From Cordylochernes scorpioides (lineage: Eukaryota > Arthropoda > Arachnida > Pseudoscorpiones > Chernetidae), in the NCBI GenBank assembly GCA_030710605.1, contig CP092882.1, positions 23,318,610 to 23,382,609 on the forward strand: DNA of 64,000 bases, read 5' to 3'. Below the pieces are notes generated by a model, which saw only the letters and a list, made by a program, of their open reading frames with translations, made no database searches and was not told the origin of the DNA. Below are positions 31,728 through 63,425 of this stretch, piece after piece; position 1 is the first letter of the stretch, and each line of letters opens with the position of its first letter. Made by a program: the position numbers and the translations under genes.

Positions 31728-31757
<30 letters not shown>
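31630..31757. repeat. AT/ATC microsatellite
   Basis: Runs of TATATA interrupted by regularly placed C residues (ATATATC units). Similar AT runs border many Helitron ends in the window. Confidence 0.8.
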
Positions 31758-31758
<1 letters not shown>

Positions 31759-32237
31759 GATGTACTATAGCGCCAACTGTTATCAATTATAAAACTATTT
31801 TAGTGGCGTATTATTCTTTTTTTAAAATAAAACAATTTCTACTGTCCTTACTGCGATGAAAAAAATTAAAGGGAGGGCCTGGCTCATCAGTGGTGAACCC
31901 TCCCAGCGGTTTCGCCAGTTTAATCTACCATACCGCTGTTATATTGCATTTTTGGAACTTCCTTTTATAGGTGACCGTTGTAAGAATCTTGGAATGGGTA
32001 TTTTAGAAGACCTATGGACATAAGCTTTTAGGACAGCAGAATTATATAATTATAAATATATAATATGCTTCGAGCAATCGCTCTTCCGCAAATATCAAAT
32101 TGTGTTTTTATTAGAACAATAATGTTATGATGTACTATAGCGCCAACTGTTATCAATTATAAAACTATTTTAGTGGCGTATTATTCTTTTTTTAAAATAA
32201 AACAATTTCTACTGTCCTTACTGCGATGAAAAAATTA
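31757..32237. repeat. Family B unit in partial tandem (370-bp period)
   Basis: A segment of about 111 bp starting ATGATGTACTATAGCGCC occurs at 31757-31868 and again at 32127-32237, nearly unchanged. Between them lies the rest of a unit, including the family B core at 31879-31918 on the minus strand. This makes roughly 1.3 tandem units of a 370-bp non-coding repeat, the layout of animal retrozyme-like elements. Sequence TATCTTTTAT with ACACCTGACCCACT lies on both sides (31605 and 32250). Confidence 0.65.
31879..31918 (-). ncRNA. Family B permuted hammerhead core
   Basis: Minus strand: CTGGC, GAAA, CCGCTGGGAGGGTTCACCA, CTGATGA, GCCAG. The closing helix is CTGGC/GCCAG rather than the usual TTGGC/GCCAA, a paired change that keeps the helix. 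Confidence 0.5.
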
Positions 32238-32325
32238 ATATATAATATTAACACCTGACCCACTTATCTTTTATTTTTTCTATTGTTTTTTCATATATAT
32301 AAATTTTGAAAATAGAGCAATCCAT

Positions 32326-32463
32326 AGATAAATCTTTAATTAAAAAGGCATATATTGGATCAAAAAAATAATATATTTTACCAATATTTCAGCTGGCTGA
32401 ACGCCAACCTAGAAACACCTTGATAAAGGTTGGCGTTCAGCCAGCTGAAATATTGGTAATATA
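32326..32463. repeat. Foldback repeat, AACGCCAACC family, cut by a Helitron
   Basis: The left arm (CAGCTGGCTGAACGCCAACC) and right arm (GGTTGGCGTTCAGCCAGCTG) face each other closely. The outer part of the right arm is interrupted where the Helitron at 32464 begins. Confidence 0.6.
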
Positions 32464-33034
32464 TCTCTATATATATAAAAGTCAATTTCTGTCTGTCTGT
32501 CTGTTTCGCGATAAACTCAAAAACTACTGAACCAATTGGTACCAAATTTTGCATGTCGCTTTTTATAAACCCGAGGAAAATTTTCGGCTGCATTTTGATT
32601 AGTATTTTTGGCTATTTCTTTTTTTCATTTGAAGAACCTTTTTTTTACGCGGACTAATCCGGAATGGAATGAATACCTAAATATGGCCATTTTTTTTAAA
32701 GCATCGGTGGTTCAGTGGTAGAATGCTCGCCTGCCACGCGGGCGGCCCGGGTTCAATTCCCGGCCGATGCATTTTTTTTTTTACAATTTTTAAAACTCAT
32801 TTATATGATATATAATATAAATATATATAATTATATCAACTATATTAATTAAATCAAATACCTAAACACTAATATAATACAATTTTTGCCATCACACACT
32901 TTTTTCCTGTAGTTTATGTGTTACTTCTGTATTGCTATTCTATGGCACTTCTAATATTTATTATTGATATACTTTTAGTATGAAGGAAATTGCACCCAAG
33001 GGATTTCTCGGGCGAAGCCGGGTCATTCGCCTAG
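32464..33034 (+). mobile_element. Non-autonomous Helitron carrying tRNA-Gly
   Basis: The left end is A followed by TCTCTATATATATAAAAGTC, and the right end is CGGGCGAAGCCGGG, ATTCGC, CTAG and then T. These are standard Helitron borders. The left region has CTGTCTGTCTGTCTG and CCAATTGGTACCAAATTTTG. No protein gene is present. The inverse of this left end occurs at the Helitron of 46545-47045. A tRNA-Gly gene lies in the middle. Confidence 0.8.
32701..32771 (+). tRNA. tRNA-Gly (anticodon GCC)
   Basis: The 71-nt sequence folds fully. Acceptor GCATCGG pairs with CCGATGC, and the discriminator is A. D-stem is GTTC/GAAT, anticodon stem CTCGC/GCGGG with loop CTGCCAC (GCC), and T-stem CCGGG/CCCGG with loop TTCAATT. 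A T run follows directly as a Pol III terminator. It sits inside a Helitron, so it may be a captured copy, but nothing visible prevents function. Confidence 0.88.
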
Positions 33035-33504
33035 TATATATATAAATAACAAAATTGTTTATTTTTTAAAAAGAGCCTAAATTGAGTTAAAAATAAATTT
33101 TAAAATATTTGCAACTATATTTCGAATAAGAACATAAATTATATAGTACAAAGGTTGTGTGTGTTAATTTTTGAAATTTGACTAGACTCCGAGCTCATAG
33201 TTAATACTAAGTTACTAATTAGGCATTAATTAACATATATGAACCCACCCCAGAGCCTCCAAATTTACAAATCATTCCTTAATAGAAATAATGAAACTAG
33301 ATACATATCTCTTAACACTAATTACAGCCTTACCATAATTCTTGCTTCCATTGTTATATTCCAACATCATATATATTTCTTCTTCTTATATATATATATA
33401 TGTCGTAATTTATATAATATCAAGATCTATAATTTTTTTTCGCCAAAATAAGTATGTAAATATGTTAAGCTTGTGTTAAAATGTAAATATGCAAATTCAC
33501 CCAT

Positions 33505-33640
33505 TTATAAAAACTGTATAGCGCCATGGCAGAGCGCCATCTAGTGGAACAAAACTAAACTAAATGTTCCGTGATATTTGGCCAACCCAATTTCTTGTGA
33601 TAAATCAAGAAAAGTCAACCACGAACGTGTTCATATTTTT
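33505..33640 (-). repeat. Family A' fragment
   Basis: GCAGAGCGCCATCTAGTGG, GATATTTGGCCAACCC and AACCACGAACGTGTT match the 5' part of the family A' element. It breaks inside the hammerhead, of which only the stem I strand remains. Confidence 0.5.
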
Positions 33641-33659
33641 AAATTAATTTTTCACATAT

Positions 33660-33950
33660 ATATGTATGTATTTGGCCCAGCCACATTGCCAGCAAAACAC
33701 CTCTTTGGTAGATTGTGAAGATTCCATTAGATCCCGTGTGGATCTCATGGAATAAAGTCCGCCCTAGACTGACGAGGGCCATTAGCCCGAAACCATGGTC
33801 TCTAGGTGGACGCTTATCAGTTTGCCAAAGTTGGTGTTGCGGCTTTGTCACCGACCCGATGCCGCTAGTTGCGGCGACGGTCAATAGATGGCGTCAGATT
33901 CTGACGTTAATTTTGACGGGAGAGGCGACCATTGCTTCCATATATGTATG
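33660..33950 (+). repeat. Family C repeat with hammerhead
   Basis: This is a GC-richer unit with the hammerhead at 33763-33806, then GTCACCGACCCGATGCCGC, and an end block TTTTGACGGGAGAGGCGACC. The same end block is found at 46490-46520, so this is a dispersed family. It is non-coding: open frames on both strands over the hammerhead are by-products. Confidence 0.65.
33763..33806 (+). ncRNA. Type I hammerhead ribozyme, all helices perfect
   Basis: Stem I is CCTAGA (33763-33768) with TCTAGG (33801-33806). CTGACGA is 33769-33775. Stem II is GGGC-CATTA-GCCC (33776-33788). GAAA is 33789-33792. Stem III is A-CC/GG-U closed by AT, ending in the GUC triplet, with cutting predicted after C33800. Every invariant core base is present and each stem is fully paired, the best hammerhead in the window. 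Confidence 0.9.
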
Positions 33951-34017
33951 TGTGAATTAAAATGAAACTTATCCGTGGAAACATGATGTTTTCAACTTAA
34001 CATACAGTATATATGAT

Positions 34018-34200
34018 GCACTAGCGCGCCATCTGTTATGAAAATTCGAAACTATTTTAAACGCGTAATATTCTTTTTGAAATTTTAGCCGATTAACCAG
34101 ACCCTCCCATTAATTTTTCCATTGCAGTAAGGGCAGTAGAATTTTTTTTATTTCAAAAAGAATCTTACGCGTCTAAAATAATTTCAAATTTTTATACAGT
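34018..34200. repeat. Family B arms, foldback remnant
   Basis: ATGCACTAGCGCGCCATCTG with AAACGCGTA at the left is mirrored by TTACGCGTCTAAAATAATTTC at the right. The centre keeps ACCCTCCCATTAATTTTTCC, part of the core region, but not the GAAA/CTGATGA motif. Confidence 0.5.
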
Positions 34201-34204
34201 ATAT

Positions 34205-34365
34205 GTTTTGAAAATAGACGTTAAGTGGCCCTGAGTTTGTTGTTGACACATATTAATATGTTATAATAACTTGATAAAGGTTGGCGTTCAGCCAACTGAA
34301 ATATTGGTGAAATAAATGATATTTTGATCCAATATATGCCTTTTTAATTAAAATACAGTATATGT
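34205..34365 (+). repeat. Single arm, AACGCCAACC family
   Basis: GGCCCTGAGTTTGTTGTTGACAC then TTGATAAAGGTTGGCG, CTGAAATATTGG and GATCCAATATATGCC. It equals the right half of the foldback at 15462-15757. Confidence 0.6.
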
Positions 34366-34564
34366 GATGCGCCGATTTTCTTCATCGAAATCCTGAACAA
34401 TCGTGATTGGATTATTTTTTTTATTTGCATAAAAGGGATGGGAAGGATTATTAACTTGAATACGACAGCATTTTACCTATTTGAGGGTGCTGTCTCTTTC
34501 ATTAATAAAGCTGCTTCAATATAATGTACATTCTAGCCAGTGTCACTTTCTCAGCTATATATGA

Positions 34565-35010
34565 CTAGCCGAATGACCCGTGCAACACCCGTGTTTTACC
34601 CGATTGTGAATGTTTTGATTCAAATACTATTTGTTACAATTATAAATTGGCGCCTTAAATAAATGCATATGTTAGTTAATAACTATAGCCTATGTGCTTT
34701 ATCTGTCTATGTACTGTTGGCTTCCGTAGGCGTCTCTTACTGGGAAAAAGAAAGAGAGGATTCCATTTGGTTATTAACTAATATATGCATTTATTTAAGG
34801 AGCGACCCGCTCCAACACAATGGTTACAAAAACGAAAAAGCGAGTGGGGGGGGGGGGAAAGTAGCGTGATCGTAGCCGACCAATAGGGGGGCGCCATTCC
34901 AAAAAAAAAAAGTAAACGGTGACAGAGATGACTGATGAAGAATGACGCTCGTAACTGTATATAGAATGTTAGATTTTCTCTTTCATTCGGTGACATATAC
35001 CTTTTTGAGG
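34565..35010 (-). mobile_element. Helitron 3' end, minus sense; left border only
   Basis: CTAG at 34565-34568 preceded by A, then ACCCGTGCAACACCCGTGT, is the mirror of a Helitron 3' terminus. The far end was not found and the right limit given is approximate. A G12 tract lies at about 34845. Confidence 0.5.
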
Positions 35011-35019
35011 TGATGCCAT

Positions 35020-35600
35020 TTTGTAAAAAAATATTGTAAATTTTCAAAATTGAATGTTTAATATTATTTTGTAAATGATGGAGTTAAATATTTAAAACAA
35101 AAATAGAATTAACAAATATTGTAAAATAAGTTTTTATTTTAATCATCCTTTTGTCAACATACATAATATAGTGTGTGTGTTTTATAAACCTGGACTAATA
35201 TGAAACAATAATAACAATGAAGAAAATAAAGATTTTCTGAAAATCACCTCACCTATTGTCACACACACAATGCCTTAAGCTATATAAGAAATAATTTTAC
35301 AATTTTTTAATTTTCAGAGTTATTGTCTGAATAACGATATACATACTGAAAGGTATATATACAACTTCCTTAAGTTTTGTTCATGAGTATGTAGAAGATA
35401 CAGAATATTTAAAAATATATATAAGTGTTATTTTTAAGTGTTTTTTTTTTTCTGTGGAGTTTTATAACCTTGTTCATAACAAAATCGTACACCCAAATCA
35501 CAAGATAGAGAATTCCTATTTTACGTTTAAATTTAACATCTGGTCGGAAATATCTTCGAAATAAAAACAAGATAACCGTCCAGTCAAGATCTGTAATGTC
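35020..35600. other. Mostly unassigned; MITE remnant at 35330-35392
   Basis: CGATATACATACTGAAAGG and CTTCCTTAAGTTTTGTTCATGAGT are the end of an ACTCATGG-family MITE. The rest is AT-rich without recognised features. Confidence 0.4.
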
Positions 35601-35604
35601 TTAT

Positions 35605-35825
35605 ACACTCATGGACAAAACTTGAGGAAGTGGAAATAATCTGATGTCGCTGGTCGTTTTAATATTATTATTTTTGTGGAGACAAGAGGCAATTTTATTC
35701 ATACTTGTTTACCTCGTGTGTCTTCATTAAGAGTCACTGTGTATCAAATACTTTCAGAGTTATTGTCCGTATCCTGATATACATTCTAAGAAGTACAACT
35801 TCCTTAAGATTTGTCTATGCGTGTA
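35605..35825. mobile_element. MITE, ACTCATGG family
   Basis: Left end ACACTCATGGACAAAACTTG after TA; right end ACTTCCTTAAGATTTGTC...GTGTA. Length about 220 bp, same interior as its relatives (CTTGTTTACCTCGTGTGTC). Confidence 0.65.
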
Positions 35826-36519
35826 GCTAACTATACTATATTGTTAACTGGACAAATATACCAAACGACAACAAAATACAATGATAGGAGCGTCGATTGT
35901 TCAAAAGTATCGCTTCATTTATTATCAATGTTCAGAGAGCTCTTGTACCTTTCTCTGCGCATCTCCAAAAACTCATATCTTCTCAAGATGTTTATCTAGC
36001 ATCCTATAAAAAGTGTTCTGCAAGCGGATACGAACTCAAGTCCCTCGGGGTAGAAACTAGATTTAATTCATTTTTATGGCTCATCTAATTATTCTCAAGG
36101 CACACTTTACCTTAATAACTTCTCATTTGCCTTTTCATTTCCCCGGGGATTCCAGAAGACATTGTTGTGTGTATAGACCTCGCTCCACGCCGCGCTTACT
36201 TCATTTCTTTGAATGTTTTATTTCCATCTCATATCTCTTCTGAATGGATGCTACTCAACAAGATAAAACACTCAAGAAATATTCCCTTTTTTATATATAA
36301 ATAAATTTGTTTGTTGAAAAATTAGCATATTCTCTGATCGTGAAGCTATAAGTAATTGATGGTTAGGTCATCTGTAAAAATAAATATAAAGTAATCGTTA
36401 AAATTTTTAATTATTCCAGAATATTTTAAACAAATACCCTTTCAATTCAATAAAACTTGTATCAATATTAAGTAAAAAAATAAAGCCTCCAGGGAAATTA
36501 TCATTTTTAAAACCTTTTT

Positions 36520-36620
36520 CATCTCTAGCTTTCGGGTACGAACGCCCTTCTACCTTGAATGAGAGAGCTTGACTCATCAGTAGTGAACCCTCTAAGCAGT
36601 TTCGCCAAATTAATCTCTAG
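36520..36620 (-). repeat. Family B core with adjoining PLE-type end
   Basis: AGCTTTCGGGTACGAACGCCC is a PLE-type end, followed at 36569-36608 (minus) by a family B core: TTGGC, GAAA, CTGATGA, GTCAA. The helix is kept with one G-U pair. Confidence 0.5.
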
Positions 36621-36839
36621 ACCTCTCTACTATTGTATTGGATTGTTTTGGTATATACCTTGTATTTTATATGGAAGGCAGCTTAGGGGTGTTTAGTGAA
36701 CCTATGGACATAATCTTATAGGTCTGTGGAGGTACATACATATAATTTCAAGGTATTGTATCGAGCTATAAGCTCTGAAAAGGTTTTTTTGAAAATATAA
36801 TTTTCTCTGAAGGCTTGATATTTTTACTCAAATTTCCTT

Positions 36840-36960
36840 TCTTGATTAATCGATAAAGCCAATTAGGTACACGTTTCATACTGCTAGTCTTCGTCAGTGT
36901 GGTGCAGGCTGTACTTCAAGAAAGCTAGACCTAGAGGCTTCTTGGAAAAATCAAAGAATG
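36840..36960 (-). repeat. Family A' fragment with decayed hammerhead
   Basis: The minus strand has CACCACACTGACGAAGACTA and GAAACGTGTA. CTGACGA and GAAA are intact but stem II no longer pairs. Confidence 0.45.
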
Positions 36961-37059
36961 GGTATTCAAAGCCCGTAATTTGTAAGTGTTATTAATGAGT
37001 CACTTCACCCTTTCTATATATACGCCAACCATCTTCTCCCCTTTCAAGGAAACTCGTTC

Positions 37060-37330
37060 TTACTATGTTGCCATAACACTATAAGAATGGAAAATAAACC
37101 ATATTTGTGGAAAAGCTTTGCTCGATACAATACTTTGAAATTATATGTATGTACTTCTACAGACCTATAAGCTTATGTCCATAAGTTTACTAAACACCCC
37201 TAAGCTGCCTTCCATAGAAAATGCAGGGTATATAACAAAACCAGTATAATACAATAGTAGAGCGGTCTAGAGATTAATTTGGCGAAACCGCTGTGAGGGT
37301 TCACTACTGATGAGCCAAGCCCTCTCATTC
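37060..37330 (+). repeat. Family B unit with permuted core
   Basis: The unit includes CTTATGTCCATAAGTTTACT and a core at 37279-37318: TTGGC, GAAA, CCGCTGTGAGGGTTCACTA, CTGATGA, GCCAA. It faces the minus-sense copy at 36569-36608. Confidence 0.55.
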
Positions 37331-37479
37331 AATAACTCATATCATTGCAGTAAGGTATGTAGAGATAATATTTGAAGATATTTAAAAGAAACGCATTGCC
37401 AGTAAATTTATTTGTGTAAAATATTAACGATAGATGGCAATAAAATTCAATTTACAAATATATATTGGTTATGAAAACA

Positions 37480-37740
37480 TATTTTGCGGAAGAGCTTTGC
37501 TCGATGCAATACCTTGAAATTATATGTATGTACCTCTACAGACCTATAAGCTTATGTCCATAGGTTCCCTAAACACCACTGAGCTGCCTTCCATAGAAAA
37601 TGCACAGTATATCCCAAACATATCCAATACAATAGTAGAGCGGTCTAGATGTTAATTTGGCGAAACCGCTGAGAGGGTTCACTACTGATGAGTCAAGCCC
37701 ACACATTCAATAACTTATATCTTGCAGTAAGGTCTGTAGA
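37480..37740 (+). repeat. Family B unit with permuted core (second)
   Basis: Direct relative of the 37060 unit, offset by about 378 bp, so the two may be a tandem pair. Core at 37657-37696: TTGGC, GAAA, CTGATGA, GTCAA. Confidence 0.55.
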
Positions 37741-38044
37741 GATAATAATTGATGATATCATTGAAAAGAAACAGATTTTCAGTAAATTTATTTGTTGCAA
37801 ATTTTAAGAATGATTGACCTAGAAAAGGATGACAATGGTTTGCACAAACGTAGAAATAAAGATTAAGAAATTTCAAGTGATCTACACCTAATGATATTTA
37901 TAAATGCAACCTTACACATAATGTTATTTTCAATACATTTGTGATTGTAATGGATACATTCAAACAAAAATAGATTTTTCTAAAACATTAAAATTTGAAA
38001 AATAGTACAAATGTGGTATTGTACTGGGAAAAGGTACATACATT

Positions 38045-38332
38045 ATGAAAAAGGCATCTCTTTATCGTGCAACTAAAAGTTGCGGATGGCTAGCGCCATC
38101 TATCGGAATAAATATAATCTATTCTCGTTGATTTTAAATTATTCCAGAATTGGCCAAATACCCATTCTTGATTAATCAATAAAAGCTAACCACGTAAGGC
38201 TAATTCAGTGAGGGTATTTAGTCAATTCTGGAATAATCAAAAATCAACGAGAATAATTTATATTTATTCCGATAGATGGCGCAAACCATCAGCAACTTTC
38301 AGTTGCACGCTAAGGAGATGCCTTTTTCATAA
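38045..38332. repeat. Foldback repeat of family A
   Basis: Arms AAAAAGGCATCTCTTTATCGTG and its partner meet near 38190-38210 (CTAACCACGTAAGG). The break is at the hammerhead, which is lost from both arms. Confidence 0.6.
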
Positions 38333-38477
38333 TCAAAATTTGAGTTAGAAAGAGAGTTGCGATCAATCGCGAATATAATTATTTAAAAATGAGTATACCT
38401 GGATCTATCAGAGAAAAACTTTTTTTTTATTTGGAGAAGAATTGATCCTTGTTTATCGTGAAATGTTTTGAAAAAAA

Positions 38478-38559
38478 TCAACATATATAGTCACGACCGT
38501 CATGGGTTCTGTCACGGATGCGCGTGCATCATCATTATGATCATTGTCATTATCTAATG

Positions 38560-38614
<55 letters not shown>

Positions 38615-38819
38615 CAACATATATAGTCACGACCGTCATGGGTTCTGTCATGGATGCGCGCGCATCATCATTATGATCATTATCATTATCTAATGATAAT
38701 AATAATAATAATTATTATTATATTATTATTATTATTATCAACATATATAGTCACGACCGTCATGGGTTCTGTCACGGATGCGCGCGCATCATCATTATGA
38801 TCATTATCATTATCTAATG

Positions 38820-38860
<41 letters not shown>

Positions 38861-38960
38861 TATTATTATTATTATTATATTATTATTATCCATCCATTAT
38901 ATATATAGTAACGACCGTCATGGGCCGGCCGGTTCTGTCACGGATGCGCGCGCACAGGGA
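38478..38960 (+). repeat. Tandem repeat with (AAT)n/(ATT)n palindromes
   Basis: Units start TCAACATATATAGTCACGAC at 38478, 38614 and 38738, and a divergent one near 38889. Each has GTCATGGGTTCTGTCA, GGATGCGCG, CATCATTATGATCATT and a self-complementary AAT/ATT run of varying length. Lengths are 136, 124 and about 151 bp. Confidence 0.8.
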
Positions 38961-39079
38961 GGTCACGTGCTCGCCGGCAGCCAACGGGCGCGCGCCGCCG
39001 GCATTACGTCATAGATTATAAACACAAGGTAATAAGGCCAAATAAAAAAATAGTGTATGATAAGGGACAATTTGGATTA

Positions 39080-39415
39080 TCTACTTATATAATTGCCTTA
39101 TTCTCTCTGTGTGAAGTTCACTGTGTGGGCAGAATGGATAAAATAAAAAAAAGTGTCAAGGGATGGGAATCGAACCCACGACCTTCCGCTTACCGGGCAG
39201 ATGCCATGACCACTAGGCTACCCTGGACATATTTTTTCGTTCACACTTTTATTTTTATATTTTCAAGACACACACAGTTTGGGGCGGGACGTTTCATAAG
39301 AGAGACATCCACGGCGCCAATTTATAATTGTAACGAATAGTATTTTAATTAAAACATTTTTAAAATATATACGCACTCGGGTAAAACCCGGGCGTTGCCC
39401 GGGCCATTCGTCTAG
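39080..39415 (+). mobile_element. Non-autonomous Helitron with tRNA-like sequence
   Basis: Exact borders: A, TCTACTTATATAATTGCC ... ACCCGGGCGTTGCCCGGG, ATTCGT, CTAG, T. It is a 336-bp relative of 2635-3140. The left flank (GACAATTTGGATTA) also occurs without the Helitron at about 53545, a candidate empty site. Confidence 0.8.
39154..39228 (-). pseudogene. tRNA-like sequence (Thr-GGT-like)
   Basis: 75 nt with A and B boxes. Acceptor GTCCAGG pairs with CCTTGAC except for one mismatch. The anticodon loop reads CCGGTAA, giving GGT, but position 33 is C rather than the nearly universal U, so aminoacyl-tRNA function is doubtful. Confidence 0.5.
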
Positions 39416-39490
39416 TGTTTATATATTCACAGAGCTACTTCAGCACTTCACTACGCTCTTTTTATATATATTATTTTTTAAAAACCTATT

Positions 39491-39703
39491 ACACTCATGG
39501 ACAAAACTTAAGGAAGTTTTACCTTTTAGCATGTATATAAGGAATCAGACAATAACTCTGTAATATATTTGATACACAGTGATCTTTATTGAAAACATAC
39601 GAGATAATCAACTGTGAACAAAATTGCCTTTGTCTTCTTCAACAAAAAGACGACCGGCGATATCAAAGACTTTCCACTTCCTTAAGTTTTGCCCACGAGT
39701 GTA
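39491..39703. mobile_element. MITE, ACTCATGG family
   Basis: Left ACACTCATGGACAAAACTTA, right CTTAAGTTTTGCCCACGAGT, TA on both sides. It is 213 bp long. Confidence 0.7.
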
Positions 39704-39971
39704 AAAGAAATATCCGTGAAGCGATAGCCTTCCAAAAAGGTTCTTGTGATATTTGAGAATATAATCCAGTTCATGTCGTCAAACAGAGCAAATACGCTTT
39801 TTACTGGCTTGCCAAACTGGAGAAATAGTCTATTTGTCATTAAATTATTGGATTTGTAGCGAATGCTAGAAATGTATATTGCACAAAAAACTTAGTATGA
39901 TAGAGAGAGAGAGAGAGAGAGAAACCAACGAAGGAAGATTTAATGGAGAAATCCATTTATAGAACATAAGC

Positions 39972-41405
39972 ATGAAGTGTCTGGATATAAGTTACTTTCC
40001 TGATGAATGGAAAAGAGCAGAGGCGTATATCATTTCAAAGCCGGGTGAATCAGATTATAAAGATTGTGTCAGCTATCGACCTCTATGTTTAAATTCAAAT
40101 CTTTCGAAAATATTTGAAAGAATAATTAACAACAAAATCATCGAATTCTACGAGGAAATGAAGTTATTCAGTAATCGTCGACATGGTTTTACAAAATCTC
40201 GATCAACCATAACTGCATTAACTGAAATAATTTACACTGCATTAGAACACAAAGCCAAGGAGTATACGGCTATAAATGCTATAGATATTAGTGGAGCTTT
40301 TGACAATACCTGGTGGCCAATGGTGATAAAAAGACTCGATGAGGACAATATACCAGCATCAATAATAAACCTCATGAAATCCTACTTCACTAACTGGAAG
40401 ATAAGATTTAGGTACTCTTCGAATGAATTCACCAAAAAACTAAGTAAAGGATGTCCGCAAGGAGAACCCTTATCTCCGACAATTTGGAACATCATAATGA
40501 ATGATCATTTAACCAACTTTCAGGAACCTAATAGTGAACTTATTGGATATGCAGATGATCTAACGGTAATATGTTGGAAAAGAGATGTAACAAATCTTAA
40601 GGTTACAATTGAAAATTCAATAGGGAAAATAAATATGTAGTGTGAAAACAACAAACTTAAAATATCAAGACAGAAAACAAAGATTTTATATTTATTCAAT
40701 TGCAAAAACGATGCAATTAACTTGCATGATAATCTTGTCAAACCAGTTGAAAACCTGAAAATACTAGGATTAACTTTCAAAAATCATCGAAACCAGAACA
40801 AATTAGAATTTATGCCTCACATCGACAGTGTTATTGCAAAAACAACTAGAGCTAGTGGATATCTTCTTGGTTTAACAAAGAAATCGTGGGAATTGGATAG
40901 TAGGCGATCATTAACATTATATAAGACCTTATTTAGAAGCACGATAACTTATGGTTCAACAATCTGTTACCCATATATAAACACAAGATCTAAAAACAAA
41001 TTGGATTCACAACAGTATACAATTATTAAACACTGTATACATGCTTATAATACAACATCTTCGAATTGTACACATGTTCTTGCAAGAATACCTAAAATTA
41101 CGGATTTCATTCTGTCAAACATACTTAAAGTTGAAATAGATTATATTAGAAATAATCCAGCAAAAAGAATGATAATATCCAACTTTATAAATGAAAAAAT
41201 TCGAAAATACTATGAAGATTCAAATGTAATTTCAGATAATATTTTGAAAACTCAAGATTACCCAAATTTATCCAGCGAAACTTTTATAATATACAATTCT
41301 TTACGGGACATGGCGACTTTAACACATACTTATACAGAATTAGCAGAATTGATTCTTCAATCTGCTTATGTGAACAAGAAAATCACAACCCTGAACATAT
41401 TTTAA
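39972..41405 (+). pseudogene. LINE reverse transcriptase (R1/I-like), one in-frame stop
   Basis: A polymerase that would make cDNA at the target site. In the first segment: SYRPLCL (34-40), RHGFTKSRST (70-79), AIDISGAFD with the first catalytic Asp (103-111), GCPQGEPLSP (160-169) and YADD (193-196). A TAG at 40638-40640, where Trp would be usual, interrupts the frame. The same frame continues to 41405 through KLKISRQKTK, the thumb and a C-terminal region. The 5' half, including the endonuclease, is missing. Codon use is AT-rich like the surroundings. Confidence 0.8.
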
Positions 41406-41932: not shown

Positions 41933-41969
41933 TTTTTTTTTTTTTTACAATTTTTAAAACTAATTTATA

Positions 41970-42985: not shown

Positions 42986-42989
42986 CGTA

Positions 42990-44340: not shown

Positions 44341-44384
44341 ATTAAAACTTCTAATGTCCTTACTACGATGAAAATATATTAAGA

Positions 44385-44960
44385 GGGCTTGGTTTATCAG
44401 TTATGAAACCTCCAAGCGGTTTCGCCAATTTAATCTACCAGACCCCTTCTTTAGAGCTCTAATACTGTATTGGATCATTCTGATTTTATATACTACACTG
44501 AGAGGTGGAATCATAGAAATGGTATTTAATCAAAATATGGACATAAGCTTTTAGTATTGTAGAATTACATGTAAATATTTGCATCGAGCAATGCTATTCC
44601 GCAAACAATAAGGAAAAGGCCAGTTATAAATAAATTAATATAAATCAATAACGCGACATCTGTATATAACAAATAAAAAACATTAAGATGCGAATGTTTC
44701 TTTCTAAATTGGCGAAACCACTGGGACGGTTCAGCACTAATGAGCCAAGCCCTCCCAATATTTTTTCATCGCAGTAAGGACAATAGAAGTTTGATTCAAT
44801 TGTGAAAAAAAAACAACATTATATAAGCATAATCGTCTAATACAGTATTTAAATCTTTAAGAAGCGGTCTGGTAGATTAAATTAGCGAAACCTGTGAAAT
44901 ATTTCACCACCAATGAGCTAAGCTCTCCCAATATATTTCATCGCAGTAAGGACAGTAGAA
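44385..44960. repeat. Cluster of three family B cores
   Basis: Cores at 44389-44428 (minus; TTGGC with ACCAA, one pair lost), 44709-44748 (plus; TTGGC/GCCAA, CTAATGA) and 44882-44921 (plus; TTAGC/GCTAA, CCAATGA). The third shows a G-C to A-T double change in the closing helix. Core bases are worn in all three. Confidence 0.5.
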
Positions 44961-52440: not shown

Positions 52441-52484
52441 GCATTATATTGTATTATAATATATATGTGGTGATTTTTAAGCAG

Positions 52485-52805: not shown

Positions 52806-52817
52806 TAAATAGGTAAA

Positions 52818-53475: not shown

Positions 53476-53479
53476 CGTA

Positions 53480-54550: not shown

Positions 54551-54555
54551 AGAAA

Positions 54556-54935: not shown

Positions 54936-55296
54936 GGAAATACGATAGAAAATATTTGATGACAAGGTTTTTTTCTCTCTTTCTCCTTGTTAATATCTTA
55001 TTACTATTATTTACGGCCTAAAATTATTGTAAATATATATAGACAAATGTAGAAACATACATGTATGACAGCGCAAGTGTCTCTAGGGGGACATAGCGCT
55101 TTAAATTGATATAAATAAGATAGAAAATGTATAAGATAACTTGAAATGAGAATCTTTGTTTACAATTGAAAAAGGTTAGAGCCAAAAGATACGAGAGGAC
55201 ATAGTTTTAACCCAGATTTTTAAACTTGTTGGGGATTACTATAGAGAACTAGGTCAATTGAAGGACTTTCAGATCGAAAACTAACCTTTTAAAAGT

Positions 55297-55506
55297 ACAC
55301 TCATGGACAAAACTTAGAAGGTGGAAAGTCTGATATCGCTGGTAGTCTGTAATTTTAAGGAGACGGAGATAATTTTGTTTACACTTAGTAATCTCGTGTT
55401 GTCAAAAAAGGTCATTGTATATCAAATATCTCTCCGAGTTATTTGTCTGAATCCCGATATACATGCTAAAAGGTACAAATTCCTTAATTTTTTTTCCATG
55501 AGTCTA
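55297..55506. mobile_element. MITE, ACTCATGG family
   Basis: TA, ACACTCATGGACAAAACTTA ... ACAAATTCCTTAATTTT, GAGTCTA. About 210 bp. Confidence 0.6.
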
Positions 55507-55699
55507 TAACTAAAATATCGTTTTTGCAATATAATTTTATAAGTGTTTTAAAGGTTTTTCATCTCCACTAATACATCGTCTTTTTTTTTTTTTCAAATTA
55601 CTAATGACTTCTATCAATATATTTATATGCAAATATAATATTTTCAAAAAATATTATAGAAAATGTATTAAATTACAGAAAGTATGATTAAATGCATTT

Positions 55700-55835
55700 T
55701 TCAGAAATACTATTGTATGTAGACGCGTATGATTCTTTTAAAAATCAAACAATTTCTATTGCCCTTTTAAAATAATCATACGCGTCTATAATAGTTTAGA
55801 ATTTTTCATGACAAATGACGCGCTAATGCATAAAA
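55700..55835. repeat. Foldback of family B arms
   Basis: GTAGACGCGTATGATTCTTTT faces AATAATCATACGCGTCTATA around TTTCTATTGCCCTTTT. The core is missing. Confidence 0.55.
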
Positions 55836-55889
55836 ATACTATTGTATGTGTGAAAATATATCTATATTTGTATTTTTTTCAAACTTGAA

Positions 55890-56212
55890 ACAATGCGGCT
55901 GTAAAGAAATGGGACTCTATTTCAAATCTGATGTCAATGCTATCAAATCGAACTTCCATTGTCACAAAGATGTTACCACTGAGTTGAATTGGGCTCCGGT
56001 AATAAATGTGGACGCCATCTATCGAGATTTTCTCTAACTACGTGGAAGATTTAGAGGAAGGACGTAGTTTCATATCTCACCTGGTTAGATTGTCTCCGGT
56101 GATATTCTCCCGCTATTTACTGTCAGTACTCCTTGGGGGACTCAAGGGTCATTTTACTGGAATAGAATCCTCCCAGAGTCTTGGATTATCTCAAATACCA
56201 TGGCCTCTCTAG
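55890..56212 (+). pseudogene. Possible host gene fragment with frameshift
   Basis: Two frames look like one protein interrupted once. The first (from about 55890) reads KEMGLYFKSDVNAIKSNFHC, then TTELNWAPVINVDAIYRDF and stops at 56037. The second continues from the same point, one base shifted: SNYVEDLEEGRSFISHLVRL, then PVIFSRYLLSVLLGG, ending at 56212. Codons are less AT-biased than the surroundings. Either a decayed exon or two exons; no splice signal fits well. I do not recognise the family. Confidence 0.35.
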
Positions 56213-56394
56213 TCTATAACCTATGATATTCAAACTTGTAGACACCTATACATATCTGTGGAAGTTTTTATTCAGTTTTCGGAGTTTTTTATTACCTCTG
56301 CGTTTAAAAAAAAAAATTAATTGATTTATATCTCCTGGATATAAATTAAAATAATACAATAGGTTTCTAGTTATATAAAGTTTTTTTTTCATTT

Positions 56395-56460
56395 TTATTA
56401 ATGTAATCTCAAGCTTTCGAGAATCTATGTTCTTCTACAGGAGAAAATAAAACTAATATC
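56395..56460 (-). repeat. PLE-type terminal fragment
   Basis: AAGCTTTCGAGAATCTATG with CTTCTACAGGAG is the reverse of a worn CTGTAGAAG...CGAAAGC end. Confidence 0.4.
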
Positions 56461-56589
56461 AATTATGATTATTATTATTATTAATCGGTTTTTATATCGG
56501 TTCAAAAATCACGTTATTAGGCACCGCTCAAAAGGAGTAACCTAGTTTATGATAATTGAAACAATGAATAATATGTGAAGGTTATTCAC

Positions 56590-56685
56590 ATATTAAACAA
56601 AATGTTAACGCGGAATTTAATTCGGGTTCATGACTGTCGGTAATCGAGGGTCTTACCCACTCGTCCATCGACTTCTTGTTTTTTA
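56590..56685 (-). pseudogene. tRNA-derived sequence (Leu/Ser-like)
   Basis: Minus strand: GATGGACGAGTGGGTAAGAC resembles a class II tRNA D-arm, then CTCGATTACCGACAG as an anticodon region, and GAACCCGAATTAAATTC as a worn T-arm. Acceptor pairing is poor. Confidence 0.3.
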
Positions 56686-57126
56686 TATATATATATATAT
56701 TTTAAATATTGAGCAATCCATAATAATATCTATAAATAAATATAAGGCGTATATTGGATATAAATTTATTAATTAGCCAATATTTCTAGGGGCAACACGC
56801 CTCTCTTTATCAAGGCTTTTCTTTGATTTAAACTAAATCACGTGGGCATGTGATCCACTCACGCTATACAAGACCAAAGTAAGAAACCATCTAATGAAAA
56901 TTTCACTGTATATAAAATAAATTTACAATTGTTATATTTAATAATAATCAAAAGAGTATATAATTAAATAACCATTTGATTAAATAAATGAAGAGACTGA
57001 TAAATATTAGAAAATAAAATGAGTGAGGATTATGATTCAATATGTTGTGTTGATATATATAAATAAAAATATATTACAAGTATAAATATATACAAAAATA
57101 ATAAAATAAAAAAATAAATAAATAAT

Positions 57127-58995
57127 TTAGGAAGATATAAATTCTCTGTAAATTTCTGGTAGGTCAATTTTCCTATTTATGCTTTCTGAATCTTTTATAG
57201 AGGCCCAGCTTTCTAAAAATAACCTGCAGTGCTTTTCTTTTATATTCTGGTATAAAATGGATGCTTTGTCAAATTCGGGTATATGATTATTGTTCAGTGC
57301 ATGGTCTACTAGGATAGATAATGGTTTATGGATGCGTAGAGCTGCTTTGTGTTGGTTAATGCGTTCTTTCAATGCTTTGCTGGTTTCTCCAATGTAAGTG
57401 GCTGGACAGGTTTTGCACGGAATTTTGTAAATAATATTGTTTTTGTTTTCCTTTTTACTATTATTCTTGGTGTCTGAGTGGCGTAGAATTTGTTTTAAAT
57501 TTGGTGCAGATTGATATGTGGCAATTATATTATATTTCTTTAATACTCTGGCGATTCTTTCTGATCCGTAACTGTATGGTAGAGAGCAATACCTTTTATC
57601 GGATTGATCATTGCTATTGTTTGAAGATGGAAATCTGGGAGTGTAAAAATGCTTCTTGATGAATTTCTTCGGATAATTATTGTCTATCAACTCTTTAAAA
57701 ATTATATTACTTTCTTCTTTTCTTTCAATATTTCTATTTGAGCAATGTGTAGTTATTCTTTTGGAAAGTGTTTTTACTACGGCGATTTTATTATGAATCG
57801 GACCAAAAGAGCTAAAATTTAAATAGTTTCCTATGTGCGTAGGTTTTCTGTATATGGTGGTTTCTATATGAAGTTCTTTTCTTATTAGTTGAATGTCTAA
57901 AAATGCTAAAGAATTATTGTTTTCTATTTCGTGTGTAAACTTTAAATAAGGTTTTAGATTATTCAGAAAATATAGGAAAGTATCAATTTCTGTTTCAGTT
58001 ATGCAAAAAACATCGTCTATATATCTCATCCATAATAAAACTTTTAAATTATTTGCTTCAGTAATAATTTTGTCTATTTCATTCATGAAAATGTTTGCCA
58101 ATGCTGCTGAAATAGGGTTGCCCATAGGCAAGCCTCTTATTTGCCTAAAAAATCTGTTTTTGAAGTTAAAATAGCTATATTCTAGACAAAGCTTCAATAA
58201 ATCTATCAGGGCTTCTTTGGGAATAGGAAGAACTATTTCAGGATGGAGTTCTAGAAAAGACTTGAGGGCTAGGAGAGCTTCGTCGTGTGGGATTGATGTG
58301 TAGAGGGATTCTACATCAAATGAAACCATTCGATTATTACTTGGAATTTGTAGATTTTTGATAGTTTCAACAGCTACTATGGGATTGGGGACTGTATGAG
58401 GAAGTTGCTTCTGGAATGGAGATATTATTGACGACAAGTATTTTGTGAGAGGATAGAGAGGAGAGCCAGCATAGCTAACTATGGGACGTAATGGTGTGTT
58501 AGGCTTATGGACCTTTGGTAAGCCGTAGAAGTTGGGAAGATTATTTTCTTCTGCTTTCAAATTTTCGAAAGCTTTCTTATTGAGTTTATATGTGCGTATA
58601 ATTTTGTTTAGTTTTCTATTGAATTCTTTGGTGATGTTAGTTAATGGGTCTTTAGTTAATTCTTCATAAACCTCTTTATCTTGTAATAATTGTTCTGTTT
58701 TGTAATTATATTCAGTTGTGTTCATGATTACTGTGTTTCTTCCTTTATCTGAAGGTGTTATTACTATTTCTTGGTTATTCTTCAATGAATTTATTGCTTT
58801 TCTTTCTTGGTGGTTTAAATTTGTTTTGTTTTGTCTTCTTAGTTTTTTAATTATTGGTGCTATTTCTGTTCTAATTCTAGCCTTATTATCATCCTGCAAA
58901 TGTTTTATAGAATTTTCGATCGCGGCTATAGTTCTTGGAGTATCAATATTCTGGGAAGGAACAAAATTTAAACCTTTTGATAAAAGTGTGATCAA
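57127..58995 (-). pseudogene. Penelope-like RT/GIY-YIG polyprotein, 5' truncated
   Basis: An uninterrupted frame of 622 codons ends at the normal PLE stop. Motifs: LLSKGLNFVP at the very start (normally well inside the protein), SDKGRNTVI (82-90), GLPKVHKP and LRPIVS (158-174), FDVESLYTSIP (226-236), QIRGLPMGNP (285-294), YIDD (325-328), AFLDIQL (364-370). GIY-YIG: IIYKIPCKTC (521-530), TYIGETSK (533-540), INQHK (546-550). The first codon is TTG and the frame begins at the inverted junction, so roughly the N-terminal quarter is missing. It belongs to a different PLE lineage from the 16.8-22.2 kb copies. Confidence 0.88.
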
Positions 58996-59472
58996 TCCGA
59001 TAAAAGGTATTGCTCTCTACCATACAGTTACGGATCAGAAAGAATCGCCAGAGTATTAAAGAAATATAATATAATTGCCACATATCAATCTGCACCAAAT
59101 TTAAAACAAATTCTACGCCACTCAGACACCAAGAATAATAGTAAAAAGGAAAACAAAAACAATATTATTTACAAAATTCCGTGCAAAACCTGTCCAGCCA
59201 CTTACATTGGAGAAACCAGCAAAGCATTGAAAGAACGCATTAACCAACACAAAGCAGCTCTACGCATCCATAAACCATTATCTATCCTAGTAGACCATGC
59301 ACTGAACAATAATCATATACCCGAATTTGACAAAGCATCCATTTTATACCAGAATATAAAAGAAAAGCACTGCAGGTTATTTTTAGAAAGCTGGGCCTCT
59401 ATAAAAGATTCAGAAAGCATAAATAGGAAAATTGACCTACCAGAAATTTACAGAGAATTTATATCTTCCTAA
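58996..59472 (+). pseudogene. Penelope-like GIY-YIG fragment (right arm)
   Basis: An open plus-strand frame starts at the junction with DKRYCSLPYSYGSERIARVL and runs to the PLE stop at 59472. Over this part it equals the C-terminal about 158 residues of the minus-sense copy, including IIYKIPCKTC and TYIGETSK. The RT is entirely absent. Confidence 0.85.
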
Positions 59473-59879
59473 ATTATTTATTTATTTTTTTTATTTTATT
59501 ATTTTTGTATATATTTATACTTGTAATATATTTTTATTTATATATATCAACACAACATATTGAATCATAATCCTCACTCATTTTATTTTCTAATATTTAT
59601 CAGTCTCTTCATTTATTTAATCAAATGGTTATTTAATTATATACTCTTTTGATTATTATTAAATATAACAATTGTAAATTTATTTTATATACAGTGAAAT
59701 TTTCATTAGATGGTTTCTTACTTTGGTCTTGTATAGCGTGAGTGGATCACATGCCCACGTGATTTAGTTTAAATCAAAGAAAAGCCTTGATAAAGAGAGG
59801 CGTGTTGCCCCTAGAAATATTGGCTAATTAATAAATTTATATCCAATATACGCCTTATATTTATTTATATATATATATA

Positions 59880-60190
59880 TATACTCGTAACTCCTGTAAA
59901 AGGACAGAGATGCCCGAAAGCCTGAAATTACATTAATAAAAATGAAAGGAAACTCATCTTCAGAAACCTGTTGTTTTGGTTTGTTGTTGTCGTGTCCAAT
60001 GAAGAGCTTCAGATGTCTCCATGTATCTCTATCACAGCAGCAGCAATGTCCACTATATTTGCTTTTCATTAGAAAATGGGTGCTGTTGCCACGTTAGTCA
60101 CTTTGGAAACTAACCAGAATTTGGTCGAATATTCCAAGGGTCCAGTGGGGACCGCAGGAAGGTGTGGTTGGACTTCTCCCCCCCCCCTTG
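59880..60190. repeat. PLE-type end plus second copy of the GTT retroposon
   Basis: CCTGTAAAAGGACAGAGATGCCCGAAAGCC at 59890-59925 is a PLE-type end. From about 59975 the sequence GTTGTTGTCGTGTCCAATGAAG and ATGGGTGCTGTTGCCACGTTA matches the insertion at 25865-26040, ending in a C11 tract near 60178. Confidence 0.55.
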
Positions 60191-60524
60191 TTTTGGTTTA
60201 AGACTATAATAAAATGAATATTTTGAACGATATTTTTACACGAATACCTCAATTTTAGTATATAAAAATAATTTGATTTTATTATTATAATTATCATAAT
60301 CTCTAGTACACGTGATACAGGCCATGATAATAATGGTGAATATTTAGCAATTACTCTTATTGTAAATGCACTACGTGTCTACCTATGTAGAAAACACAAC
60401 TCGGATTTTACACTTACAAGTATGTTAGAGCCCCGTTTGTTTACTTGCATTCACTGGTGAGGTTGGACTTTTTCAAGAATCGGTGGTCATTAAGTCAAAT
60501 TATTTTTTTTTTCAGAAAAAAAAT

Positions 60525-60625
60525 CCCAATGCGGGATTCGATCCTGGGTGATGGATATCGAGAATTGACGGTTGATTCCACTCTTCCAATAACCCCCAAT
60601 TTGAAAAAAAAATAATTAACTTATC
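60525..60625 (-). pseudogene. tRNA-derived sequence
   Basis: Minus strand: GGTTATTGGAAGAGTGGAATC (A-box-like) and AGGATCGAATCCCGCATTGGG (a good T-arm) followed by a T run. Confidence 0.35.
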
Positions 60626-60639
60626 AATTATTGAAAAAA

Positions 60640-60745
60640 TAGTACAAATGTTATATTGTACTGGGATAAGGTGCATAATTATAAAAAAAGGCATCTCCTT
60701 ATCGTGCAACTTTCAGATGCACGATAAGGAGAAGCCTTTTTTTAT
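60640..60745. repeat. Minimal family A foldback
   Basis: GGCATCTCCTTATCGTGCA directly faces TGCACGATAAGGAGAAGCC. Only the outermost 30 bp of each arm survive. Confidence 0.6.
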
Positions 60746-61204
60746 TATCAATTAGTGTTATTTATTACTTAGTAACTTAAAAAAACACGGAGATGTTTTT
60801 TCATATATTTTACTCGAGTCTCAAAAGAATTTGATAAACGCTACATTAGACAGTCTATGCTAGGGTAGCTCCATACCAAATGAAATGTTTAATTTTTGTT
60901 TGGCTATGTTTTCAACTAAATCATTTGGCACACATGGTAAAACGCGAACATAGCAGCATAGCAGATTATTTCGCTTAAACAATATTTACTTATCACTCAG
61001 AAAAATTATTTTTGAATTGATTTATATATTAATTGTTCTGAAAAAAGAGCAATCCATACTTAAATCATTAGATAGTAAAAAGGCATATGTTCATTTTATT
61101 TAATCCAATATATGCCTTTTTACTATTTAACATATATATCTATCAATTCAAAATAATTATATATATATATATATGTTTTGAAAATTGAACAATCCATATA
61201 TTCA

Positions 61205-61500
61205 ATTATTTATAAATGCTTATTTTGGATCATACATTTTTATTTTCCAATATTTCGTATGGCAACTCGTCAAACTTCTTCGGGGAACAAGATTGTTTTG
61301 AGATTCTTGCGTATCAATTCACCAATATATCTACAACTGCTGTAAAATTCAAAATATATCTAAAACAGTCTTTAGCAGTTGTACATACTCGTGAATTGAT
61401 ACGCGAGCATCTCAAAACAATCTTGTTCCCCGAAGACGTTTGGCGAGTTGCCATACGGAATATTAGAAAATAAAAATATATGATCCAAAATAGAATTTAT
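61205..61500. repeat. Foldback of PLE-type ends
   Basis: The arms pair over about 120 bp: TTTTGGATCATACATTTTTA / complement, AATATTTCGTATGGCAACTCG / CGAGTTGCCATACGGAATATT, and GAACAAGATTGTTTTGAGAT / its complement. The hairpin GGCGAGTTGCC with GAAATATT-like sequence links it to the third PLE locus. The frame at 61216-61473 merely reads through it. Confidence 0.65.
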
Positions 61501-61513
61501 AAATAATATATAT

Positions 61514-61737
61514 ATACTAATAGATAAAACACTTAAGGAAATGTAAAGCCTTTGATGTCGTCTGTTATCTATTTTTTTTTTTTTGGAGGAGACAGAGGCA
61601 TTTTTGTTCACTCACTAGGTTTTCTCGTGTGTCTTCAATAAAGTTCGCTGTGTATCAATTATCTTTCAGAGTTATTGTATGAATCCCGATATACATGTTA
61701 AAAGGTACAACCTTTTTGAGTTTTGTCCATGAGTGTA
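61514..61737. mobile_element. MITE, ACTCATGG family, worn left end
   Basis: ACTAATAGATAAAACACTTAAG at the left and GAGTTTTGTCCATGAGTGTA at the right, interior TCAGAGTTATTGTATGAATCCC as in relatives. Confidence 0.6.
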
Positions 61738-61739
61738 GT

Positions 61740-62940
61740 GTTATATTGATATTTACTTGCGCACACTTAATTTATGGGACAATCTATAGGTTCAATAAAC
61801 GTTATTTAATTTAAAATTCAAAATTTCGGTAGGTTTAATTGGTTAAGAAATGTTAAAAACGAATTCAAAGATATAGATGGCATTATATCTATGCGAAATT
61901 AAAGAGATGCCATCAATTTAGCAAGTATATACCCTTTTAATATAAGGAAACAAGTTAATTGTACCGGAAATTAAGAACTAAAAAAAAACCAGAAAGATAT
62001 AACGTTTAAAAACAGAAATTCATTAGGAGAAAGTAAAAAAATTAAAGTTTTGATATTCTATCAATGTCCAGCTAAATGAACCACTTACAAAACCGTAATT
62101 TCCGGAGAGAAAAAGAAAGGAAATACAAAAACACATTCAGGATTGAGAATCTGTAGTTACAAAAAAAAACTTCTAAAAGTTATTTAGTGATAAAAACAGT
62201 AATTACAAAGTAAAACTTAAAAAGTAATTAGAAATAAAACAAATTGAGGACTTCCCGTGGGGGGAGGGGGATAAGGAAGAAAGAATTTTCGGGGAAAATC
62301 TTTTAACCAAAGATCTCAACAGAAAATAGACTTTTTTGTTGAAAAAGTATAAAGGAAGTTTAAATTTCTTTTTAAATGTGAGGAAATTTGATTGGAGGAA
62401 TTCTCTTCAAATATTAATTAAAATCTTGCTATTAACAGAGTGGTAATTTCCTGGATATCTTTTGTTTTGTAAGTAATGAAAATCTTAGAAGTACGCCTTT
62501 CAAATTGAGAATTTGATATTAATTGGAGAGTCTGATATTCAATTTCGTCCAAACAAAAGAAAAATAAAATGTTGGAAATTATCTTTTGATCAGTAGGTAT
62601 TACATTTATTAATTTTACATACGATTTATATATTATATAAATCTAAATATTATAATTTCGAGCAGAAGATAATATTCTCTCTCATATATATGAAATAAGA
62701 AGATACTTCTGCTTTAAAAGACGGTATCTTCTTCCAACGAATATTATCACCATGTGATCAACTTGAATTCGATTTCGACAAGTCATATTTTTTTTACGTT
62801 TCAAATTATCAGAAAAAGTAAAAACTTCTTTAATATATATAAGATAATAAAAAGAACTTGGGGCTTACGAGGATGAGCTTCTTGCTTTAGTATAGTCTAC
62901 AGGATTATATGATTGGATTATGGGATAGTATAATTATATT
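61740..62940. other. Unassigned AT-rich sequence
   Basis: No gene, tRNA or repeat boundary recognised in this 1.2 kb. Confidence 0.45.
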
Positions 62941-62951
62941 ATAAAATTAAA

Positions 62952-63425
62952 GAATTTAAAGGACGAATGTTTCTTTTATACATAATACAAACTTCTCCTG
63001 CCCTTACTTCGATGATAAAATATGTATTGGGAGGGCTTGGTTAATCAGTGGTGAACCCTCCCAGCGGTTTCGCCAATTTAATCCACCAGACCGCTTCTCA
63101 AAGCTCTAATACTGTATTAGACGATTCTGCTTATACGAGTATACGCAGCACTGAAGGGTGGAATCTCAGAAATGGTTTTCAAGAAACCTATGGGCATAAG
63201 CTTATAGGACAGTAGAATTAAATTCTAATATCAATCGTCTTTCAATCGTCTAATACAGTATTAGAGCTCTGAGAAGCGGTCTGGTGGATTAAATTGGCCA
63301 AACCGCTGGGAGGGTTCACCACTGATGAGCCAAGCCCTCCCAATACATATTTTCTCATCGAAGTAAGGGCAGTAGAAGTTTTTATTATGTATAAAAGAAA
63401 CATTCGTGCTTTTAAATTCTTTCAT
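62952..63425. repeat. Foldback of two complete family B units
   Basis: Arms of about 185 bp include AAACTTCTCCTGCCCTTACTTCG, TTGGGAGGGCTTGG, CCAGACCGCTTCTC and AATACTGTATTAGACGATT and their mirror images. Cores lie at 63037-63075 (minus; CTGATTA, so one core base lost) and 63294-63333 (plus; TTGGC, CAAA, CTGATGA, GCCAA). This is the most complete family B palindrome. Confidence 0.7.

Follow-up and report, generated by a model that had tools for sequence, protein, structure and literature searches.

A 64,000-nt stretch of the genome of the pseudoscorpion Cordylochernes scorpioides (2.62 Gb, 24 contigs), referred to here as the window, raises the question of which hammerhead ribozyme, if any, is encoded by a dispersed repeat in which GAAA precedes CUGAUGA. 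A first-pass annotation had named nine copies of this repeat and read them as a type II hammerhead, opened in stem II. Homologous repeats are present at all nine sites, and a search with a hidden Markov model (HMM) found further fragments in the window. Our analysis indicates that the motif is very probably a type-SGC (non-circularly permuted, pseudoknotted) hammerhead, lying at the 5' end of a ~370-nt noncoding, retrozyme-like pseudoscorpion element that is moved by Penelope-type enzymes. By its structure the ribozyme belongs to a known class, and its self-cleavage is predicted.

Hammerheads are composed of three blocks, S (III'-NUH-I), C (I'-CUGAUGA-II) and G (II'-GAAA-III), which in ordinary hammerheads follow one another in the cyclic order S-C-G. 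The consensus of subfamily i of the pseudoscorpion repeat reads AGCGGU-C↓UGGUGGA-UUAAA-UUGGC-GAAA-CCGCU-GGGAGGG-UUCACCA-CUGAUGA-GCCAA-G-CCCUCCC, the arrow marking the predicted cleavage site. Stem I is formed by UGGUGGA/UUCACCA and stem II by UUGGC/GCCAA. Stem III, AGCGGU/ACCGCU, begins at the last A of GAAA and recruits AGCGGU from ~20 nt upstream, where it adjoins the cleavage triplet GUC, or GUA in subfamily ii; both are permitted hammerhead cleavage triplets. A fourth helix, GGGAGGG/CCCUCCC or GAGAGGG/CCCUCUC, connects stems I and II at their distal ends. The core (NUH, GAAA and CUGAnGA) stands in the correct adjacency to stems I–III in the consensuses of all three subfamilies, as the claim of a hammerhead core had it, and is intact in 57 of 79 full-length copies. 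Because the cleavage block precedes GAAA, the blocks run 5' to 3' as S-G-C in all three subfamilies; every hammerhead strand is complete and only the connection differs. S-G-C runs opposite to the cyclic order shared by hammerheads of types I, II and III and is unreachable by circular permutation.

With the S block 5' of GAAA, opening in stem II no longer describes the repeat. Likewise, the ACC/GGT stem III and GUU site assigned earlier are unsupported, ACCGCU being able to pair with AGCGGU beside GUC/GUA, and a helix I put at about five bases extends to up to 7 bp once the S block is included. The suggestion that GGGAGGG/CCCTCCC might form a pseudoknot proved correct, these strands being the fourth helix, with 90.4% of cells paired. 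The guess that the repeat might be a new variant came close: it is found here in an animal retroelement, but the topology was already published in 2023 as type-SGC (PMC10085705). With Rfam, the window yielded no hammerhead at gathering level, and in the surroundings of one copy no family reached E<=10, a result that is weakly informative because Rfam also misses the type I-like hammerhead of a Penelope-like element (PLE) described below. Exact core patterns were absent from viral contigs and prokaryote genomes. A tRNA-derived short interspersed element was considered by eye, AGCGGTC and GGGTTC resembling pol III boxes, and was rejected: the T-arm would be unpaired, and the units have a TATA box in place of such a promoter.

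Exact matches to a 33-base core pattern number 48,857 in the genome, and its reversed form has none, indicating that the longer motif is not a product of chance. CTGATGA alone, with 15 matches in the window against a shuffled mean of 8.36 (1 of 100 shuffles reached 15), is barely above chance. The claimed GGC-GAAA...CTGATGA order holds in part: CGAAA and CTGANGA are intact in four of the nine named copies (31884 and 36574 on the minus strand, 37281 and 37659 on the plus strand) and altered in the other five. An intact copy of subfamily ii occupies 31871–31937 on the minus strand (HMM match, 106.8 bits). By hand count its S block AGCGGTA↓TGGTAGA spans 31924–31937, with cleavage predicted between 31931 and 31930, and is followed by the linker TTAAA (31919–31923), the G block CTGGC-GAAA-CCGCT (31905–31918), the 5' strand of helix IV (31898–31904), the C block TTCACCA-CTGATGA-GCCAG (31879–31897) and the 3' strand of helix IV (31871–31877). 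Subfamily iii is represented on the plus strand by an intact, HMM-matched copy at 37261–37326, whose hand-counted parts are the S block AGCGGTC↓TAGAGA (37261–37273, predicted cleavage 37267/37268), the linker (37274–37278), the G block (37279–37292), helix IV (5' 37293–37299, 3' 37320–37326) and the C block (37300–37318). A second intact copy, at 37639–37704 on the plus strand, belongs to the next unit of a tandem pair with a period of 378. The subfamily iii copy at 36561–36626 (minus strand) keeps the core residues and has a weakened stem III, AGAGGT/ACTGCT.

The five altered copies are decayed, truncated or mutated in one block. The core reads CTGATAA at 44381–44447 (minus strand) and CCAATGA at 44863–44929 (plus strand), and the copy at 44709–44756 (plus strand) is 5'-truncated, consisting of G and C blocks only, with no S block and with CTAATGA. 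Two subfamily i copies form a head-to-head pair with 3' ends 34 nt apart: the left arm at 63029–63095 (minus strand) carries CTGATTA in its C block, and the right arm at 63275–63341 (plus strand) has CCAAA for CGAAA, GAAA having become CAAA. The paired changes reported at 31879 (CTGGC/GCCAG) and 44882 (TTAGC/GCTAA) are both present and correspond to stem II, an RNA helix with compensatory change.

The first-pass annotation had proposed a covariation test. The 79 full-length copies reduce to 50 distinct sequences, of which 49 were aligned and one, with a long insertion, was left out. Of 1215 cells, 89.9% are paired under the four-helix model, compared with 33.9–55.9% when partners are slid by 1–3 columns. 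Cells in which both sides have changed number 41 against a shuffled mean of 17.9, and the score is 0.151 against 0.118; neither value was reached in 500 shuffles. Between subfamily consensuses, pair 2 of stem I alternates G-C/A-U, pair 5 of stem II U-A/C-G and pair 2 of helix IV G-C/A-U, with both sides changed in 10, 19 and 8 of the 49 rows, respectively. Compensatory changes support stems I, II and IV; the independent events are few and are inherited within subfamilies. Stem III remains paired in 92.5% of cells, and covariation in this stem is supporting evidence for the type-SGC class, not its definition.

Head-to-head copies are common. We collected facing copies at most 30 bases apart genome-wide and measured the reach of each arm relative to the predicted site; P values compare a two-base window with the eight nearest positions and treat arms as independent. 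Subfamily iii gave 36 loci, 33 of them distinct, with 66 arms, 25 of which end exactly on the base that immediately follows the site and three one base further (28/66 at position 0/+1, P 1.5e-8). Ends in this subfamily can be preceded by A or T where the template has C. For subfamily ii, among the 50 loci listed of 177 (43 after removal of repeats, 86 arms), 35 arms lie at 0/+1 (P 1.9e-8), seven at the site and 28 at +1. A control near the subfamily ii TATA box (21 loci, 18 distinct, 36 arms) is flat, with no position holding more than four arms. Subfamily i, with 24 loci and 48 arms, has nine arms at the site and one at +1 (10/48, P 0.10). Two of the three subfamilies, iii and ii, thus have a peak of head-to-head junctions where cleavage is predicted.

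Several of our observations weigh against a working type-SGC ribozyme whose cleavage shaped these junctions. Neither the count of pairs that show at least one both-side change (7 against 5.9 shuffled, 161/500) nor that of further pair types (28 against 27.2, 188/500) is significant. None of the six stem III pairs shows a compensatory change in the 49 rows, and when stem III double mutants of the subfamily ii sequence were counted across the genome, where some of the sites may have arisen by duplication of others, the totals were 22 and 30 for paired, 20 for wobble and 24 for unpaired combinations; the lack of a pairing preference is as expected for neutrally decaying copies. Stem I of subfamily iii has only 3 bp, an A.A and 2 bp, and stem III and helix IV abut without a linker, a geometric difficulty for the fold that Eckert et al. 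also raise, in the published account, for a few of their sequences (PMC10085705). Among the junctions, the next highest position in subfamily iii, with ten arms at +2, is explicable by microhomology of the TCTAGA palindrome. The subfamily ii peak, drawn from the loci listed, stands at +1, not at 0; such ends could reflect the template's A, an added A or a shared CCATGG. Subfamily i has no significant excess of arms at the site, and a second group of 9 of its 48 arms ends 11–14 nt upstream, ~35–38 nt below the T of a TATA box that is itself 49 nt from the site. This group may mark the start of uncleaved transcripts, and, together with the missing excess, it suggests that uncleaved RNA serves as a template too. 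Finally, of 110 copies in fetched loci, nine arms break at -1 or 0, at six loci (L020, L034 with three in tandem, L037, L040, L041 and L042 with two), and the rest elsewhere.

One alternative is that the hammerhead forms between two copies, as a tandem dimer or from two RNAs, with S and C supplied by one copy and G by the next, so that S-C-G is restored and the S-G-C monomer is not a working fold. With no linker between them, stem III and helix IV would be difficult to accommodate in a cis fold, the units do occur in tandem, and salamander retrozyme hammerheads are described as doing better as dimers (PMC7229834). Nevertheless, we consider this explanation unlikely, given that type-SGC ribozymes with such a fourth helix cleave in vitro during transcription, as described for that class (PMC10085705), that the short linker between stems I and II and helix IV suit a cis fold, and that many insertions contain a single ribozyme.

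Less likely again is an inactive or otherwise structured RNA, its stems kept for binding by a Penelope-type protein or as promoter or cDNA start signals, with the hammerhead consensus a relic or a coincidence. The absence of covariation in stem III and the subfamily i junctions fit this explanation, as does the finding that unprocessed RNA is the dominant in vitro template for the PLE PAc of Anolis (PMC11167929). It leaves aside that all core residues are rightly adjacent, that two subfamilies have their junction peaks at the predicted scissile site, and that the 67-base ribozyme is identical at 58–63 positions between subfamilies, compared with 266–276 of 401–411 aligned columns for the whole unit. 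The type II hammerhead with an ACC/GGT stem III and a GUU site, which the GAAA, ~19 nt, CUGAUGA order of four of the nine copies recalls, can practically be dismissed, as it leaves five nt for stem I, the upstream S block supplies every missing part, and the junctions peak at the S block, in a search that covered this block and not GUU itself.

The type-SGC ribozyme is carried by units of 371, 371 and 368 nt (GC 0.38, 0.345 and 0.353) that occur in tandem or head to head. In the window, the intact subfamily ii ribozyme lies in a minus-strand array of ~1.3 units with a period of ~370 (31756–32238), where blastn of the window against itself matched 31756–31869 to 32126–32238. No open reading frame (ORF) was seen in the units, which we take to be noncoding. 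A putative TATA box, TATAAAAGG (31961–31969, minus strand), precedes the 31871–31937 copy, and a TATA-like GGTATATAAC (37227–37236, plus strand) precedes the copy at 37261; both are candidate promoters. The segment 3' of the ribozyme pairs with one that starts ~116 nt before the S block to form a long-range helix, P0, whose arms in the plus-strand tandem pair are CTACAGACCTATAAGC (37536–37551) and GTAAGGTCTGTAG (37727–37739, 3' of the ribozyme). ACUGUCC/GGACAGU in subfamily i corresponds to ACAGACC/GGUCUGU in iii, giving two further compensatory changes, and P0 is fully paired over 11 bp in 24 of 35 rows, several of the others being false matches of the search pattern. The folding energy of the units is ordinary (z -0.29, -0.35 and -0.56), and we therefore claim no rod-like RNA. 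About 100 bases before the S block, all three subfamilies carry TGTCCTATAAGCTTATGTCCAT or a similar sequence (in iii, AGACC replaces TGTCC). The hammerhead of PLE1 in the window reads CTGATGA-AGGACGATGTGTCC-GAAA-GCTTATGTTCATGC, and the likeness of TGTCCTATAAGCTTATGTCCAT to it tentatively suggests that a decayed type I hammerhead may reside in the same unit as the SGC ribozyme. At one locus (L034:5805-6270) four ribozyme copies stand in tandem at steps of 117–122 bp, and three of the four begin exactly at the predicted cleavage site (TAGAGATT).

The 3' ends of 93 copies fall at 136–162 of the unit in 44 and at 170–190 in 29, and in 12 of 17 inverted pairs the 3' ends lie 28–40 nt apart, two of these loci (L032 and L048) looking like one insertion copied. 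AT-rich direct repeats of 4–15 bp, such as ATACCCATAGCAAAT, flank the insertions; repeats of at least 10 bp were found in 8 of 17 inverted pairs compared with 2 of 272 mismatched-flank controls. According to Frangieh et al., both target strands are cut and extended by a Penelope-like enzyme, and complementary DNA (cDNA) begins at either of two neighbouring internal sites, accounting for a 30–40-bp tail (PMC11167929). The tail and target duplications observed here closely match their findings, so mobilisation by a Penelope-like enzyme appears probable by analogy.

Candidate sources of such an enzyme are present. Two Penelope-like ORFs of 799 aa, 99.9% identical, lie head to head in the window at 16840–19239 (minus strand) and 19829–22228 (plus strand). 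The first encodes a reverse transcriptase with a GIY-YIG-like motif recognised by eye; the second, with an RVT_1 domain, is 100% identical over 87% of its length to a C. scorpioides protein. Their pseudo-long terminal repeat (pLTR) contains, by eye, a type I-like hammerhead for which Rfam gave no match at E<=10. A second Penelope-like family is represented by an ORF with RVT_1 and GIY-YIG domains at 57127–59016 (minus strand). Genome-wide, a first look gave 17,015 GIY-YIG candidates, any host GIY-YIG genes included, and of the 150 that were scored 146 reached E<=0.001. No autonomous PLE with an SGC ribozyme was seen in the fetched loci with two query proteins; at two loci (L004 and L010) a decayed PLE ORF has a 5'-truncated unit downstream.

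Other features were noted in the window. Hammerhead-like CCTGTAGAAGGGC...GCCCGAAAGCTTGA, with CUGUAGA or CUGUAAA for CUGANGA, occurs near Penelope ORFs at 23580–23640, 56410–56450 and 59890–59930, and a similar GGTAGAAGGGC...CCCGAAAGC at 36530–36565. C-block-like stretches (CACTACTGATGAGTCAAGC and kin), inverted and on both strands, occur without S or G blocks in two short palindromic elements (23380–23470 and 25600–25710). Five tRNA genes or tRNA-derived repeats were also noted: tRNA-Gly GCC at 32701, 41862 and 45420, and tRNA-Thr GGU at 39153 and 51151.

The following cycle accounts best for these data. Transcription would start from the TATA promoter a few bases before the S block, in subfamily i 11–14 nt before the cleavage site. 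Each monomer would fold into two adjacent hairpins, one closed by stem III with a ~20-nt loop that holds the I and II' strands, the other closed by helix IV, whose loop contains I', CUGAUGA and II; pairing of these loops through stems I and II would generate the usual hammerhead core, with helix IV in place of a loop-loop contact. The permuted fold might thus act as a pair of kissing hairpins, either within one molecule or between two. Within one molecule, the far ends of III and IV would have to meet linker-free, a strain that a dimer of two RNAs would relieve. Judged by homology and the genomic 5' ends, the RNA would be cleaved after GUC or GUA, tandem transcripts yielding unit-length RNA of 368–371 nt. 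A Penelope-type reverse transcriptase/endonuclease would then cut both target strands and begin cDNA at either of two internal sites ~35 nt apart, and two cDNAs reaching the RNA 5' end would be joined head to head, producing inverted pairs with a junction often at the cleavage site. The inverted-pair pattern is observed; its proposed mechanism draws on PMC11167929.

How does this element relate to known systems? Eckert, Friedrich, Weinberg and Weinberg (2023) describe 583 type-SGC sequences from environmental data, none of them, in that account, in a known organism's genome; the class was discovered by way of hairpin ribozymes, and its members were suggested to be part of circular RNA agents (PMC10085705). 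As published there, the linker between stems I and II is typically three nucleotides, a fourth helix joins the other sides of these stems, and cleavage in vitro occurs at the expected place at 0.007–0.19 per min, with loss and rescue for all four stems. The pseudoscorpion ribozyme shares with HRIMA-1 and variants, as described in that report, the S-G-C order, core nucleotides, stems I–III, short I–II linker and fourth helix. The linker from stem III to the fourth helix is 0 here and 0–44 nt in theirs, and, compared by published description, ours resides in arachnid chromosomal DNA in tens of thousands of copies as part of a retroelement. Metazoan retrozymes (Cervera and de la Pena 2020, PMC7229834) are portrayed as similar in being noncoding tandem repeats of 170–400 nt with one hammerhead per unit, low GC (34.5–38% here), target-site duplications over 4 bp, PLE company and great abundance (up to 120,000 copies in axolotl), but their hammerheads are given as type I, whereas here type SGC is combined with PLE-like inverted pairs with tails. 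With PLEs that carry minimal type I hammerheads (PAc, PMC11167929; PLE1 in the window) the units share tandem copies, AT-rich targets, two internal cDNA starts with a 30–40 bp tail and the cutting and extension of both strands; unlike these PLEs, they have no ORF that we saw and a hammerhead of another topology. A pseudoknot-containing hammerhead resembling pistol (PMC11300833) has the pseudoknot in common and is described as having pistol connectivity. In our literature search, whose scope left most subscription journals and all bioRxiv preprints outside, no subsequent paper described type SGC from an animal; as far as it reached, an animal genome and a Penelope-type retroelement are a new setting for this class.

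Non-circular permutations of natural RNA have so far been known from environmental data, with hosts unknown. A named animal with a chromosomal reservoir provides living material in which to ask what type-SGC ribozymes do, how a zero-linker stem III/helix IV folds, and how the permutation evolves beside type I hammerheads. Genomic evidence that hammerhead-cleaved RNA acted as a template of Penelope-type retrotransposition comes from the junction peaks; RNA-seq of Anolis PAc gave no sign of such a role, no reads beginning or ending at its hammerhead site (PMC11167929).

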